A stretch of DNA of 61,112 nt from Spirogloea muscicola (taxonomy: Eukaryota > Streptophyta > Zygnematophyceae > Spirogloeales > Spirogloeaceae): positions 796,878 to 857,989 of the forward strand of contig WELB01000033.1 of assembly GCA_009602725.1 (NCBI GenBank), written 5' to 3'. The notes under the pieces were generated by a model. That model made no database searches and was not told where the DNA came from. It was given only the letters and a program-made list of their open reading frames with translations. The translations under genes and the position numbers were made by a program. Positions 6,851 through 51,565 of the stretch are shown one piece after another (the first letter of the stretch is position 1; each line of letters opens with the position of its first letter).

Positions 6851-7010
6851 CTTCTGGTAGTCAGGCAACAATTCAGCGACCTCTATGTAGCGACCCGTGG
6901 TTACTGAGCGGGTCAATCTGCTGTAGGTGATCAATCTGCTGTAGGTGATGTACGTCTTCAGATGTGCTTGCCTTTGTACCAGGCCATTTGGCCTTTGCTT
7001 GCTTCGAATA
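6850..7010 (+). mobile_element. Non-LTR retrotransposon 3' fragment
   Basis: The plus strand reads FSDLYVATRGY-stop (TGA 6905-6907), the ORF end seen in the other copies of this family. The following 3' UTR shares GTGCTTGCCTTTGTAC and GGCCA blocks with copies near 15240-15343 (-) and 51230-51290 (+). It lies in the TSK upstream region, antisense to TSK. Confidence 0.6.
6913..6948. repeat. 18-bp perfect tandem duplication
   Basis: TCAATCTGCTGTAGGTGA occurs twice without a spacer (6913-6930, 6931-6948), inside the retroelement 3' UTR. The related copy near 15330 has only one version. Confidence 0.9.
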
Positions 7011-7825
7011 CACGGAAATATCCCCACCTACAGATGAGAGATGAAAGGCGCGGTATGCGCTTGACAAGGAATTTCAACAGCTCTTCCAATAGAAGGCCAA
7101 TGCGAAGCCTTACAGAAGTCCTGGTGATGGGGCAAGAAGCTGCTTAAGGGGGTCAATAAGCATCCACGAGTGAGCACATACATTTCCAACAAGCTGAGGA
7201 GCCAGAGCACCACCACGCAAGCCATTAGTCTGGCCTAGTGCGCCCCAAGTGTTCGCCCCTATCTTTACTCAAACGCCTACTACGTTTGCAGGCGGTGGAG
7301 GAGCGAGGGTCACGAACGGCCAAGTCGTTATACAGTCAGACAGGAGGAGCTGTCATGTGACAACATGGCTGTGGATGCCAACTGCAAACAAGACTCTCAG
7401 GCTTTGCATGTTGTGGCAGATCGAGGCTGCAGGTCTATTGAGGCGTGCTTGCATGGCGAATTTGTCGGACCCGCATGGAGGAACTAGTGGCACACGACGG
7501 AGGCTGAATGACAGGTGGCAAGTAGGGATACTGGCAGATTCAGCCAGGTTCTTCCGTGGCGCCTGATGTGCACTGGACTTTACGGTCCTCCTCAGATCCC
7601 AACAACATGTTGCCATGAGCATCAATTTCCGGAGTGGTCACACAGCAACCCCAGCTGCAGCACGAAGTATCGGCACGTCCGGCATGCTGCCTAGTTACTT
7701 GCGCAGACTTGTCCCATCTCAACAACATCACAGCGTAGCCCCTGCCTGATTCTATTTGAAGACCACCGCAAGCAAAGATCCCCGTGTCACCCAATGTCCT
7801 GCTGACTATTCTCTTGCAGAGGTCT
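7011..7825. other. Intergenic region, possible degenerate retroelement tail
   Basis: No gene recognised. On the minus strand near 7150-7215 a frame reads LLEMYVLTRGC, which resembles the retroelement ORF terminus but lacks its stop, so it may be an old tail. The remainder shows short open frames without family similarity. Confidence 0.35.
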
Positions 7826-14069: not shown

Positions 14070-14651
14070 NNNNNNNNNNNNNNNNNNNNNNNNNNNNNNN
14101 NNNNNNNNNNNNNNNNNNNNNNNNNNNNNNNNNNNNNNNNNNNNNNNNNNNNNNNNNNNNNNNNNNNNNNNNNNNNNNNNNNNNNNNNNNNNNNNNNNNN
14201 NNNNNNNNNNNNNNNNNNNNNNNNNNNNNNNNNNNNNNNNNNNNNNNNNNNNNNNNNNNNNNNNNNNNNNNNNNNNNNNNNNNNNNNNNNNNNNNNNNNN
14301 NNNNNNNNNNNNNNNNNNNNNNNNNNNNNNNNNNNNNNNNNNNNNNNNNNNNNNNNNNNNNNNNNNNNNNNNNNNNNNNNNNNNNNNNNNNNNNNNNNNN
14401 NNNNNNNNNNNNNNNNNNNNNNNNNNNNNNNNNNNNNNNNNNNNNNNNNNNNNNNNNNNNNNNNNNNNNNNNNNNNNNNNNNNNNNNNNNNNNNNNNNNN
14501 NNNNNNNNNNNNNNNNNNNNNNNNNNNNNNNNNNNNNNNNNNNNNNNNNNNNNNNNNNNNNNNNNNNNNNNNNNNNNNNNNNNNNNNNNNNNNNNNNNNN
14601 NNNNNNNNNNNNNNNNNNNNNNNNNNNNNNNNNNNNNNNNNNNNNNNNNNN
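14070..14651. other. Assembly gap (582 N)
   Basis: Run of N between a GC-rich exon region and a retrotransposon fragment. The sequence content is unknown. Confidence 1.
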
Positions 14652-15240
14652 GTGAGCAGCTCGAGCCACCGAGCGCCCAGCGCCCCATGTGTGTCGATGG
14701 CCAACGGGAAGAACTCGTCTTCCCGCGGATGATCCGCGTACTTCAGCTCTTTGGCCCGAGCAGCGCAGGCGACCGCATACCCAGCCGTGGTGGCACATTT
14801 GGCTGGGTGTGAGCGGTCATAGGCATCAGTAGTGACCACGTCCAGGAGAAGACGTGGCCCGCCGGCCTGTCAGGTGGCCACCAGGTCTACACGCCTGGCA
14901 TGGAGACCGTCGGCCCTGTGCTGGATTGGCATGATTCCGGAGTGCTCTGCTGCCACGGAGAAACCAGCCTCCAACAGGATGCCATGCATTACGTCGCGGA
15001 GGCGGTCGTGGGCCGCTGTCCGCTCTCCGCCGTGGGAACAGCGCAGGACATGAGCAGCCAGCTCTCCAGGCTCGGTCCCGCGCTCGCCACACTCACATTG
15101 ACGCACACCCTGGAGACATGGCGGCAGTAGGCCCAGGAGCCGGTGGACGGCACTTCGGAATACCTCGTCCGGGAGGGTGAGGGCGTCGTAGAGGGGGAGG
15201 GCCTGGAGCCACGCCGCAGCCCCCGGGGAAGGCGAATGCG
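14652..15240 (-). pseudogene. Non-LTR retrotransposon ORF C-terminal fragment (copy A)
   Basis: The minus frame reads AAAWLQALPLYDAL, VHRLLGLLPP, a zinc knuckle (CECGERG, then HVLRC), AAHDRLRDVM, then RADG..RRVDLVAT. The same frame continues across an in-frame TGA to LLLDVVTTDAYD and AKELKYADHPREDEFFPLA. Order and spacing recall the C-terminus of R2/CRE-type LINEs (zinc knuckle, RHN-like motif, RPD...D of the restriction-like endonuclease), but that subtype is inference. Broken by the stop and cut by the N gap. Confidence 0.7.
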
Positions 15241-15362
15241 TGTATATTAAGAGATGGGGAGGCCATGTGTGGCCAAGTACAAAGGCAAGCACATTGGACA
15301 AATGTACGTCACCTGCTGCTAAGCTGACCCGCTCAGTAACCACGAGTCAGCACATAGAGGTC
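15240..15362 (-). mobile_element. Retrotransposon 3' tail joined to copy A
   Basis: The minus strand reads DLYVLTRGY-stop near 15360-15330, then the 3' UTR block shared with 6907-7010 (+) and 51230-51290 (+). It runs straight into the interior coding sequence of copy A, a head-to-tail junction. Confidence 0.6.
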
Positions 15363-15496
15363 GCTAGCTGACAAGGGGAAGAGGCCGAGTGGAGTCTCGC
15401 GCGCCCTGGGAAAGGCCTGCCCAAGGAAGGAATTCTTTTCGAGTGCTCGTGCAATTGGGTGCTCGCTTTAACACCGTCGTACCATCACAAAGGAAG

Positions 15497-15543
15497 AAGC
15501 GCGGGGCCAGATTGACTGGTGGCTGGGAAAGGCCAGCCCAAAG
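15497..15543 (-). mobile_element. Retrotransposon 3' tail with hairpin
   Basis: The minus strand carries GGGCTGGCCTTTCCCAGCC (stem arms 15521-15526 and 15533-15538) followed by a tail also found at 16185-16230. It abuts copy B coding sequence at AAAGAGCTCAAG. Confidence 0.6.
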
Positions 15544-16020
15544 AGCTCAAGTACGCAGACCATCCGCGGGAAGACGAGTTCTTCCCGTTGACAATGCACA
15601 CCCATGGGGCGCCGGGCGCTCGGTGGCTCGAGCTGCTCACCCGGCTCGCCCGCCACACCATCGCCCGTCGCTTCCATGGGGAGCCGGTAGACTTTCCTGC
15701 AGCCGGGTCTTCGTGTGGTTCCGTCATGTCTAGTTGTCTCGTTGCCTAGCTAGTGTGTTTCCATTCTTTTGGATTTTGTCCATTCTTTTTTGGCTGGCTT
15801 CTGCCAGCCCCTCTCTCTATGGGCGAGCTCATCTTCTGCAGCCGGGTCGCTGGCGCAAGCGTATCGAATGCGCCTGGCCGTCTCGCTGCAGAGGTCTATG
15901 GCCCGGGCGTTGCACCTTCGTGCCGGCAGAGCCCTCGCTGCTGCCTCTGGCTCTGGCCAGGGGACCCACTTCCACGAGCCTAGCATCTCCGATCTGCAGC
16001 TGCTTAGCAGAGGTTTCTGA
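15541..16020 (+). pseudogene. Retrotransposon ORF C-terminal fragment (copy B), split by insertion
   Basis: The plus strand reads KELKYADHPREDEFFPL, HGAPGARWLELLTRLARH and FHGEPVDFPA. It is interrupted at 15710-15835, then resumes SLAQAYRMRLAVSLQRS, ALHLRAGRALAAASGS and ISDLQLLSRGF-stop (16018-16020). It matches copies C, E and F. Confidence 0.75.
15710..15835 (+). mobile_element. Nested retrotransposon 3' end with 13-bp target duplication
   Basis: A segment of about 126 bp containing the hairpin (arms 15792-15797 and 15804-15809) and ATGGGCGAGCTC interrupts copy B. CTGCAGCCGGGTC is present on both sides (15697-15709 and 15836-15848). The uninterrupted sequence is visible in copy F (about 42880-42895). 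This is the expected footprint of a 5'-truncated LINE insertion. Confidence 0.8.
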
Positions 16021-16060
16021 GTGATTCGTAGCTGCTTTGTTTCTCAGTGTGCTTGTTTTT

Positions 16061-16184
16061 CCAAAGGAATGGACAAGGTCTGGAGGAGCCGGAGTGCGAA
16101 GGACTAGGACTAAGACGTCAGCCAGGGAACGCTCAGTAACCTCTAGTCAGGAGATGCAAGTCTGAGTAGCTAGCCGGCGGAAAG
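16061..16184 (-). repeat. Direct repeat unit 1 (retrotransposon end)
   Basis: About 124 bp, closely matched to 16225-16354. On the minus strand it reads DLHLLTRGY-stop (stop 16135-16133), then a 3' UTR without the hairpin. Confidence 0.85.
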
Positions 16185-16224
16185 GAAGCGCGGCCAGAAT
16201 GACTGGTGGCTGGGAAAGGCCAGC

Positions 16225-16354
16225 CCAAAGAAATGGACAAGGTCTGAAGGAGCCAGAGTGCAAAGGACAAGGACTAGGACTAAGACATCAGCCAGGGAAC
16301 GCTCAGTAACCTCTAGTCAGGAGATGCAAGTCTGAGTAGCTAGCCGGCGGAAAG
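16225..16354 (-). repeat. Direct repeat unit 2 (retrotransposon end)
   Basis: About 130 bp with a 6-bp insertion relative to unit 1 and few other differences; period 164 bp. The minus-strand ORF end (stop 16305-16303) is followed by a 3' UTR that leads into the hairpin at 16208-16225. Confidence 0.85.
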
Positions 16355-16378
16355 ACGTCGCCCTGACGGAAGCCGGAG

Positions 16379-16868
16379 GTGGTCGCTTTGGCGGCTCGGA
16401 GTAAGGAGCGCAAGTACGCTGACCACCCTCCAGGCGATGCCTTCGCGGCACTAGCCATTGATGTACACGGGGCCTTCGGCAGTGGCTGGTTGGTGTTCTC
16501 CAGCGGCTTGCCCGGGAAACCATCGAGCGGCGGCAGGGCTTGCCAGGTTTCAATGCAGCCGGCTCCCTCTTGCAGGTCTTTTGGATGAGGCTGGCGGTCT
16601 CACTGCAGCGCTCTTTGGCTCATGCGGTCCATGCACGCGCTGGCCGTGCTATGGCTGCTGCTTCCGGGTCTCGACAGAGTGCCGCTTTTCCCACTTCGAG
16701 TTACTCTCATCTGCTGTTGCTCACACGTGGATACTGAGCATCCATCTGCATCTCCCTCCGCACAGTCTCGTGCTTTGTAGTGTAGTCCTTTTACGGCACT
16801 TTTTCTTTGGCTTTGGACATTGTTCATACTTTTTGGGTTGGCTTTGCCAGCCCCTCTTCTCTATGGGC
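16379..16868 (+). pseudogene. Retrotransposon ORF end and 3' UTR (copy C)
   Basis: Encodes AARSKERKYADHPPGDAFAA, a frameshifted middle, then AGSLLQVFWMRLAVSLQRSL, HARAGRAMAAASGS and HLLLLTRGY-stop (16735-16737). The 3' UTR carries GGTTGG/CCAGCC (16836-16841, 16847-16852) and CTCTATGGGCGAGCTC. Frame breaks make it a pseudogene. Confidence 0.7.
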
Positions 16869-17290
16869 GAGCTCTTCTTTGAGGCCGCCACCAAAGCTCG
16901 GCCTGCGCGCAAGTGAACCGCGAAGGCAAGGGACTGCTGCATCGAGATGGCCAAACGCATTGGGAAGACTTGAGCGAGGGACCCGGCGACATTGAGGCCG
17001 GGCTGCTCGCCCTGCTGCCCGAGGCGGCCGGGCCGCCGCACGCCGCGCAAGGCGGTGAAGCAAGTCAAGCCACTTCGAGCCAAAGGCTCCGTGCACGTCG
17101 ACTGCCAGTGGAACCAACTCGTCTCCCACCGGGTGGTCCGAGTACTTCCGTTTCTTTTCGCCCGCCGCTTGGCCGACTGCGTAGCCCGCCTCCTCCGACG
17201 AGCGTTTGGCGCTGCTGGAAACAAAGCAGTCAGTCGTGACAACGTCGGAAGGGCTCGCCCATCGAGGATAGGGGCTGGAATAGCCAGCCC
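16869..17290 (-). pseudogene. Retrotransposon ORF fragment (copy D) with 3' tail joined upstream
   Basis: The minus strand reads RKYSDHPVGDELVPLAVDVH, SKWLDLLHRLARR, VAGSLAQVFPMRLAISMQQS and FAVHLRAGRALVAA in broken frames. Just 5' of it on the same strand lies another copy's tail with a hairpin (arms 17273-17278 and 17284-17289) and ATGGGCGAG, giving a further head-to-tail junction. Confidence 0.65.
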
Positions 17291-17861
17291 AAAGCTACCA
17301 CAGGAAAATAGCATTGGCTGGAAGTGGCAGCTCGACCAGCCCTTCAGAGCATCCAAAGCCCGAATTGTACAGAGAGAGAGCTGCTTCTGTGACTGTGAAG
17401 TACTTGAATCAGCGATGATGAGTAACCCCAAACTTGTGTGAAATGTGGGGCTTGCTAGGAGGCCCTGCTTCACATAGACAAGCGTGCCAGGCAAGGCCAA
17501 TATTGCGGCCGTCCCAAGCCGCTTGATGTACACCACGCTGCTTGGTTCTTAAGCAAGTAGCATCTACTTTCTGTAGGTGATATTCAGCACTTGACAATGG
17601 CACTATTACCGCGAGCACTTGACCACGGCATGCAAAGAGCCCATCACATCATAGTACCAAGTGTTTGCCATATTCATATTCTCCAATAGAAGCGCTCATT
17701 GCAGAAGCAGGTGACCGTCAAATTGATTTCGTCAAAGTAGCAGGCAATCATTAGCCGGTAGTAAAGTGTGCCTCGCAAACAGCCCAGTACCTATTGATTT
17801 GATTCACATAAATGTCATGCGTTGGCTACACAGGTCGGCGTTGTGCCTACCTGAAGATAGA
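17291..17861. other. Intergenic region
   Basis: AT-richer than the flanks. Short open frames only; nothing recognised. Confidence 0.4.
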
Positions 17862-20336: not shown

Positions 20337-20685
20337 TCGGTGCCTTTGGGTCTTGTGTCCTGCTACCGTATGCGCTTGTCTATGTCCCTACAGCGGTCCC
20401 AGGCGATTGCTTTGCATCGCCGGGCTGGTCGCGCCCTTGCAGCAGCCTCTGGTTTGCGCAGCGGGGTTGCTCTTCCTCCCCTCAGCTCATCTGACTTCCT
20501 ACTGCTGACTCGGGGGTGTTGAGGGCGCCCTGTCTGCCTAGCCTACGGCTCCGTCATGAACACCTGTATGCATCTGGCTGGCAGTGTACAGCCGATTTTT
20601 AAATATCAGCAGCCGCTTGATATCTCTCGTACTCTGTTCATTCTTTTTCGGGCTGGTTGTTCCAGCCCCTATTCTCAATGGGCGA
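20337..20685 (+). pseudogene. Retrotransposon ORF end and 3' UTR (copy E)
   Basis: Reads YRMRLSMSLQRSQAIALHRR then AGRALAAASGLR and SSDFLLLTRGC-stop (20520-20522). The hairpin GGCTGG (20651-20656)/CCAGCC (20662-20667) lies about 129 nt later, followed by CTCAATGGGCGAGC. Inserted between two divergent genes. Confidence 0.75.
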
Positions 20686-20690
20686 GCACT

Positions 20691-20692
20691 CT

Positions 20693-20744
<52 letters not shown>
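20691..20744. repeat. (TC)n microsatellite
   Basis: About 50 bp of nearly perfect TC repeat, starting directly at the 3' end of retrotransposon copy E. Confidence 0.95.
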
Positions 20745-42859: not shown

Positions 42860-43180
42860 GTCGAGCCAGTAGACTTTCTTGCAGCCGGGTCGCTGGCGCA
42901 AGTGTATCGTATGCGCCTGGCCGTCTCGGTCTATGGCCCGCGCGCTGCACCTTCGTGCTGGCAGAGCCTTCGCTGCTGCCTCTGGCTCTGGCCAGGGGAC
43001 CCACTTCCAGGAGCCTACCATCTCTGATCTGCGGCTGCTTAGCAGGAGTTACTGAGTGATTTGTAGCCGCTTTGCTTCCGTGTGTGCTTGTTTTCCTTAG
43101 CGCTTCCCCCTGGCCCCCTTCTCGTACTCTGTTCATTCTTTTTTGGGCTGGCTTCTTCCAGCCCCGATCCTCAATGGGCG
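42860..43180 (+). pseudogene. Retrotransposon ORF end and 3' UTR (copy F)
   Basis: VEPVDFLAAGSLAQVYRMRL followed by a frame change, then SMARALHLRAGRAFAAAS, ISDLRLLSRSY-stop (43053-43055). The hairpin GGCTGG (43146-43151)/CCAGCC (43158-43163) lies about 91 nt later, followed by CTCAATGGGCGG. It supplies the uninterrupted version of the site split in copy B. It ends about 150 bp before the SSADH start codon. Confidence 0.75.
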
Positions 43181-43327
43181 GCCACTTCGTCTCCAGTGGA
43201 GGGCGATGGCTGTGATCCGCCAGCCCAGGAGGGGAAGAACAAGACGCGCCGCCAGGCGGGTCGAAGCGTCGTCACGGCACCGGGCCACGCTGGCACGCCC
43301 TCCACGTGGCGACCTGACAAGGTCGCG

Positions 43328-51149: not shown

Positions 51150-51565
51150 TCTAACGACGCCCTGACGGCAGCCGCCCTGCCGCTTGCCGTCCCGTCCGGT
51201 CGCCTGGCTGCCCGCGTCGACAACTTGCCAATGCGCTTGCCTTTGCACTTGGCCACATAGGCCCTTCATCTCTTAGCGCACACACGCCTTTTCCTTGGAC
51301 TGGGTCATGAAAGCCCGTTCACCGGGCGAGCTGGCCGCGTCATGGCTGCCGCCTCTGGATTTAGGCGGACTGCCTCTTTCCCAGCTCCGAGTTACTTGGA
51401 GCTGCTGCTGCTCACTCGTGGGTACTGAGCTTCCCTCTGCTTCGTCTTGTGTCTAGCTGTGTGATTTTTTTCCTTTCGGCTACATTTCTTTTTGGTTCTT
51501 TGGAATTCGTCCAATTTTTTGCGCTGGCATTTGCCAGCCCCTCTTCTCTATAGGCGTGCAATTTC
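51150..51565 (+). pseudogene. Retrotransposon fragments, 3' tail joined to ORF end (copy G)
   Basis: 51230-51290 shares the CGCTTGCCTTTGCACTTGGC tail block with 6960-7000 (+) and 15260-15300 (-). From about 51310 the ORF end of another copy follows (LAASWLPPLDL in one frame, SYLELLLLTRGY-stop, TGA 51425-51427). A hairpin GCTGGCATTTGCCAGC lies at 51523-51538, then CTCTATAGGCG. Internally deleted and frame-broken. Confidence 0.65.

Follow-up and report, generated by a model that had tools for sequence, protein, structure and literature searches.

Introduction

To our knowledge, the way in which the reverse transcriptases of long interspersed nuclear elements (LINEs) choose their template is understood in detail for few elements. 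The present work deals with a LINE group of Spirogloea muscicola (Streptophyta, Zygnematophyceae) and with the RNA structure at its 3' ends, as seen in a window of 61,112 nucleotides (nt) of contig WELB01000033.1 (assembly GCA_009602725.1, positions 796,878 to 857,989), in particular in window positions 14652..17290, and in the remainder of the genome. Recognition of a structured 3' end is already known in L2, R2 and plant L1 elements. In stringent-type LINEs a 3' stem-loop is bound by the element's own protein, and deletion of the stem-loop abolished retrotransposition in zebrafish L2 elements; the authors proposed that the stem is recognized generally and the loop specifically (PMC4176376). 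The proteins of avian and testudine R2 elements bind a structured 3' untranslated region (UTR), which in birds and turtles consists of a pseudoknot, a hinge and a stem and in which compensatory mutations restored activity (PMC12180492). ME1, a plant L1 lineage described by Ohshima, possesses a covarying 3' stem, on the 3' side of which the sequence 5'-CGAG-3' is conserved (PMC3747384).

The element of S. muscicola resembles each of these systems in part. A conserved stem-loop close to the 3' end, one of the features that characterize stringent-type LINEs, is present, just as the L2-clade members UnaL2, ZfL2-1 and ZfL2-2 carry a short stem-loop near the 3' end with family-specific loops (PMC4176376). 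Unlike stringent L2 elements, the element described here has the signature of a restriction-like endonuclease (RLE), no detected apurinic/apyrimidinic endonuclease (APE), an inner core that is invariant across its families, a pyrimidine tail and an outer stem that covaries. With R2, whose structured 3' end is recognized during target-primed reverse transcription, it shares the RLE type, N-terminal zinc fingers and a structured 3' end (PMC12180492). In contrast to R2, it is dispersed and occurs in very high copy number, and the fold proposed for it, in place of a pseudoknot, is compact, comprising two stems within about 50 nt. The likeness to ME1 lies in a covarying 3' stem in the green lineage and in the sequence GGGCGAG in the tails of families A and F (PMC3747384), although the CGAG match may be a coincidence. 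ME1 belongs to the L1 clade, whereas the element studied here carries the RLE signature and no detected APE domain, and the tails of its families B and X lack CGAG. The absence of an APE match in two long copies argues against membership in the plant L1 (ME1) lineage. In its order of N-terminal zinc fingers, central reverse transcriptase and C-terminal candidate zinc motif plus predicted RLE, the protein is like those of the RLE-type LINEs NeSL and Utopia (PMC4640811).

Results

The genome searched comprises 153 Mb in 471 contigs. We collected 156 distinct open reading frame (ORF) ends of the element (185 under a looser rule), and the 3' UTR sequences served to distinguish about ten families or subfamilies, namely A, A', F1, F1b, F4, B, D, X, Z and W, together with an additional C/Y group seen mostly without its ORF. 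When the UTRs of ten representatives (all but F4 and C/Y) were aligned from the stop codon to 20 nt before the hairpin and the 45 pairs were compared with shuffles, 39 pairs lay at or below z 2.0, and the six that exceeded z 4 joined members of the F1 group, A and A', B and F1b, or B and D. This bears out an earlier note on the window, which had proposed a GGCTGG/CCAGCC hairpin as the mark of 3' ends in a retrotransposon family whose 3' UTRs diverge. The core GGCTG/CAGCC is common to A, F, B, C, D, X and Y. Family Z has GGCC-loop-GGCC and family W GGCU-loop-GGCC, so that the fourth pair is U-A, C-G or U-G across families, Z and W being aligned by position, with homology not proven.

A second, outer helix, absent from the earlier note, encloses the hairpin (for example GUCCAU...AUGGGC). 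In A, A', F1, F4 and X, the layout comprises an outer stem that is 4-7 pairs long, a 5' spacer rich in U and the almost invariant inner hairpin GGCUG(G)-loop-(C)CAGCC, which is followed after about 20-23 nt by a pyrimidine-rich 3' tail (CACTTTCTTC-like). The remaining families keep the inner hairpin, with the outer stem partial or unseen. Counted by eye on the sequences, the spacing from hairpin end to tail is about 20-23 nt in all the families listed above except W (about 27 nt); it is maintained although most 3' UTRs do not align. Minimum-energy folds contained both stems in A, A', F1 and F4, with the outer stem formed by GUCCAU/AUGGGC in F1 and F4 and by UCAUU/AAUGG in A and A'; folding-energy z values were -3.8 for F1 and -4.6 for F4. 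Further outer stems were read by eye in X (UCAAU/AUUGG) and in single loci (L013, ACAU/AUGU; L025, ACGU/ACGU; L056, AUAU/AUAU; L153, UCAGU/ACUGG).

Between families the outer stem differs in both of its arms, the change in one matching that in the other, and this supports selection on RNA structure. In a permutation test with set rules, the four letters after an upstream GT preceded by T, C or A were compared with a segment of equal length taken at one of four offsets downstream of CAGCC. The 22 distinct 5' words formed on average 3.41 of four pairs with their own partners, against 2.96 (sd 0.11) with permuted ones, and none of 5,000 permutations did as well; 11 of the 22 word rows were fully paired (four pairs), against a permuted mean of 5.0, and as many as 11 came up in 4 of 5,000 permutations. 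When the full set of 60 distinct rows, representing 168 copies, was used, 1 of 2,000 permutations did as well. A covariance model whose seed of six copies included that at 15777-15829 of the window was run over 100 of 167 sources (the window and 99 of 166 loci) and gave 295 matches, of which the best 150 were aligned to yield 112 distinct rows. On this alignment, two-sided changes occurred in five of the six outer pairs and in 33 cells, compared with 16.6 (sd 2.7) in shuffles, none of 500 reaching that value. The covariation score of the outer helix was 0.131 against 0.098 (sd 0.004), with slid controls at 0.056 or below, and 75.2% of its cells were paired. Genome-wide, hairpins of the F1/F1b type were preceded by GTCCAT in 1,128 cases and by GTCAAT in 8, and those of the X type by GTCAAT in 362 and by GTCCAT in 19. 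A search for the X tail that allowed ATTGGG as well as ATGGGG found 1,145 copies, with ATTGGG in 98 of the 100 listed; the A/F tail was counted only as ATGGG, and the F1 copies printed had mostly ATGGG. Thus a C-G pair of F1 corresponds to an A-U pair in X, and both are common genome-wide.

Several observations weigh against a conserved two-stem fold. The outer stem appears in just four of the 13 best folds of typed family ends, and folding energy is ordinary for A, B, X, C, Y, D and one form of W. Families Z and W carry a shorter GGCY/GGCC hairpin, and for Z, D and W no conserved outer stem was seen; that of family B forms three of four pairs and that of subfamily A2 contains a G-G mismatch. 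The outer stem was first spotted by eye, and an earlier permutation test with free register on 69 representatives was weakly positive (16 of 400). The distinct words of the rule-set test include point mutants of dead copies, and ACAT/ATGT, ACGT, ATAT and TCAG/CTGG are represented by one copy each. The model alignment is structure-fitted and leans to structure, its seed having been picked by register, and the number of pairs with a two-sided change is a weak signal (5 against 3.4, 27 of 500). Finally, 5' words and 3' words were counted across the genome in separate searches and not jointly.

The inner stem behaves differently. Both arms were present at 167 of the 237 tail-anchored sites; a further 10 retained the 3' arm alone, and 60 had neither. 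The two-arm copies contained 91 one-sided changes, namely 30 instances of the F1 wobble, 53 changes that break a pair and 8 that keep it, and three two-sided changes, none of them convincing. In the model alignment the inner helix was 99.6% paired with no two-sided change, bearing in mind that the model was built on the inner core and rows lacking it would escape. The core GGCUG/CAGCC is thus conserved, yet covariation gives no proof of it because it is almost invariant. Selection on structure, as suggested in the earlier note, is therefore supported by the outer stem, which had not been seen, and hardly at all by the stem that was named: its five core pairs show no two-sided change in the model alignment. 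The G-T pair reported at 16836 exists, but it is a feature of the F1 subfamily (30 of the 167 two-arm copies) and not peculiar to this copy. The supposedly fully paired version at 51523, GCGCTGGCATTTGCCAGCC, lacks the first G of the family stem, leaving C opposite C, and is decayed, not compensated.

With regard to the window itself, the exact pattern GGCTGG-N4-7-CCAGCC occurs six times, where 0.12 are expected from dinucleotide shuffles (none of 100 reached six), and an origin of these hairpins by chance is excluded. All eight hairpin places noted earlier are real at their positions; two of them fall outside the exact pattern, namely 16836, with its G-T pair, and 51523, a degenerate copy. The covariance model recovered all eight at an expect value (E) of at most 1, that at 15521 by its hairpin part only (E 0.23). 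Strand can be read only from the flanks since the stem is self-complementary. The downstream word, an upstream stretch rich in T and, in copies that still have one, the ORF end assign hairpins 15521, 16208 and 17273 to the minus strand, which corrects the earlier note; the marking words downstream are ATGGGCGAG for the A-type and a TCTGGCCGCGC-like sequence for the B-type tail. Pairing of hairpin 20651 with the ORF end at 20520-20522 was rejected: this ORF end belongs to family D and has its own hairpin at 20576-20593, and hairpin 20651 forms the 3' terminus of another copy downstream of it, a 5'-truncated one of family A'. Of the range of about 78-129 nt given earlier for the distance from stop to hairpin, the longest value (about 129 nt) consequently spans two elements; family medians lie between 53 and 99 nt, with wider values among single copies. 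The features are listed in Table 1.

Table 1. Positions of element 3' ends and coding remnants within the window
Feature	Position	Strand	Remarks
3' ends, family Z or its forms	6973-7018, 15238-15283, 51242-51287	+, -, +	GGCC-loop-GGCC hairpin; end near ATACACGA
Remnant of LINE ORF linker and endonuclease region	14654..15229	-	65% identity to L039 residues 860-1052
Hairpin, second family B copy	15521..15538	-	apparently 5'-truncated just upstream; hairpin-only match, E 0.23
Two-stem 3' structure, family F4 copy	15777..15829	+	hairpin 15792-15809; outer stem GTCCAT/ATGGGC
3' structure, family B copy	16188..16239	-	hairpin 16225-16208; tail ACCAGTCATTCTGGCCGCGC; covariance-model match
ORF end SDLHLLTRGY-stop of family B copy	~16303-16305	-	
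C-terminal coding remnant, F1 copy	16382..16737	+	ends LLLLTRGY-stop
3' structure, family F1 copy with F1 G-U pair	16821..16873	+	hairpin 16836-16852; ORF end upstream, 16735-16737
Hairpin and tail CCCCTATCCTCGATGGGCGAGC, A-type copy	17264..17293	-	truncated just 5' of hairpin; partial model match
Family D hairpin GGCTG/CAGCC	20576..20593	+	partner of ORF end 20520-20522; missing from earlier note
Two-stem 3' structure, 5'-truncated A' copy	20635..20687	+	hairpin 20651-20667; outer stem GTTCATT/AATGGGC
3' structure, family A copy	43130..43183	+	hairpin 43146-43163; ORF end upstream, 43053-43055
Decayed 3' structure	51508..51559	+	hairpin 51523-51538; ORF end upstream, 51426-51428; E 0.03

As judged from its sequence, the element belongs to the non-long-terminal-repeat retrotransposons (LINEs); its reverse transcriptase is R2-like, and it carries the signature of an RLE. 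Two long copies, L039 (1,130 amino acids) and L040 (1,433 amino acids), both measured from stop to stop, contain one and two N-terminal zinc-finger motifs (CX2CX12HX3C), respectively, and a reverse transcriptase domain (Pfam RVT_1, E 2e-11 and 2.5e-13). RVT_1 was the sole Pfam match at E 0.01, so that no APE domain was detected in these two copies; a separate upstream ORF was not sought. A profile of five ORF copies had its best matches among solved structures to R2 proteins (E 1.9e-5), whereas a single element sequence gave no match to solved structures at E 0.1. The C-terminal region combines D-X14-D with a KX2KY-like motif, a displaced-lysine variant of PD-(D/E)XK, and D975, D990, K1020 and Y1024 are invariant in the five aligned copies. 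The KX2KY-like motif reads KERKY and KEKKY in two copies and KLRHY or KLQHY in three family Z copies, which have 37-44% protein identity to L039. A displaced-lysine KX2KY signature has been described for the restriction-like endonucleases of LINEs (PMC5678591), and the RLE of the present element is predicted by this motif alone. A CxC...H...C motif is also present, with a spacing of CX1CX11-12HX3C as compared with CX2-3CX7-8HX4C for the CCHC knuckle that precedes the RLE. The element is very abundant: the 16-nt tail word TTCTCNATGGGCGAGC has 4,592 exact copies in the genome against none for the reversed control, and a search with the C-terminal peptide gave 13,451 first-look candidates, 150 of which were scored. 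L039 and L042 are 99.6% identical across 934 residues and each keeps both stems, as does L040, so that the loss of the hairpin from recent copies, which the earlier note had named as a refutation, is not observed in these long copies.

Many insertions are very short. Of 80 tail-anchored sites (L043-L082 and L139-L166), 25 keep at most 29 nt upstream of the tail anchor; some consist of the last 25-35 nt or so of the element, and three begin exactly at the base of the hairpin. Such tiny insertions may reflect early drop-off of reverse transcription. Apparent target-site duplications were seen by eye at L064 and L048 (CTTTCTGACCCC and TCCGGC). A CTTTCTTC-like tail of the element resembles some targets, and priming by short homology is possible. 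In the window, a long CT-rich run (20690-20744) adjoins the A' tail, for which tail slippage or an older microsatellite target are possible origins. A run of N at 14070-14651 directly precedes region 14652..17290, and the whole window contains 1,815 N. Elsewhere, the genome holds genes for chlorophyll a-b binding proteins; these light-harvesting genes occur partly in sets of two or three similar loci (e.g. on contigs C229, C24 and C8) and the sets resemble a duplicated or triplicated genome. Among PDB structures, the matches of these proteins include Lhca4/P4 chains, which in one comparison score far higher than all other matches, and an LHCI-2 chain, which ranks first in another; we take this to fit a streptophyte.

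Discussion

Taken together, the data are best explained by a 3'-terminal RNA structure that serves a large and diverse group of RLE-type LINEs as a two-stem template tag, a reading to which we assign a probability of about 0.74. The structure is supported by the comparisons above; from it we infer the function, that is, binding, priming and the need for the fold. By analogy with stringent LINEs and R2, the fold would be recognized by the element's own copying enzyme: the protein would bind it on its own RNA, and the bound fold would bring the 3' tail to the nicked target, so that target-primed reverse transcription could follow. We propose that the inner hairpin is invariant because it would supply sequence-specific contacts and that the outer stem is free to covary because it would be read mainly as a helix, which sets the distance to the 3' end.

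The near-invariance of the inner stem could also be expected if an ancestral primary sequence had been kept as a linear motif for protein binding or priming, with the hairpin as a by-product of a short palindrome, and the excess of pair-breaking over pair-keeping one-sided changes (53 against 8) looks like neutral decay. Such a motif would not, however, predict the two-sided changes of the outer stem between families; in addition, the F1 change from C-G to U-G retains pairing, and the loops differ in length and letters. We therefore consider a purely linear motif unlikely. A terminator-like or histone-like stem-loop that forms the 3' end of the RNA or stabilizes it in place of poly(A), instead of being recognized by the reverse transcriptase, would agree with the copies read, which end in a pyrimidine-rich tail and not in poly(A), and with a stable hairpin at a fixed distance from the RNA end, as 3' processing would require. 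The family-specific loops and tails fit cognate recognition better, and a direct precedent exists in stringent LINEs and R2, where it is the protein of the element itself that recognizes the structure (PMC4176376, PMC12180492). We regard 3'-end formation as quite improbable as the sole role; both functions could coexist. As the stem reads as a palindrome and does not by itself tell the strand, a DNA-level palindrome or an unrelated repeat, such as the ends of miniature inverted-repeat transposable elements or a regulatory site, might also come to mind. It is contradicted by families anchored to LINE ORF ends, which the hairpin follows at family-specific distances with oriented, asymmetric flanks, and we give this explanation hardly any credence.

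More speculatively, the invariant GGCUG/CAGCC hairpin with its nearly fixed spacing might be a template code common to families whose 3' UTRs have ceased to align, such that the protein of one family copies the RNA of another while loop, outer stem, tail and the rest of the sequence diversify. We hold this to be rather doubtful; if true, the common docking site would make the genome a network of cross-mobilized LINEs tied together by one RNA fold.

As far as searches of titles and abstract openings show, two aspects are new: that an RLE-type LINE present in very many copies in a green-lineage genome has a compound fold, and that the core of this fold is invariant across families with divergent 3' UTRs. 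Judged by title, none of the papers returned by our literature searches on RLE-type or non-LTR LINEs in algae and streptophytes describes such an element. The finding would add a very abundant RLE-type LINE from the green lineage to the elements with structured 3' recognition. The several families within one genome amount to a natural experiment on template choice, in which possible reading of sequence is separated from possible reading of shape by a hairpin that stays invariant, an outer stem that covaries and a distance to the tail that is maintained.

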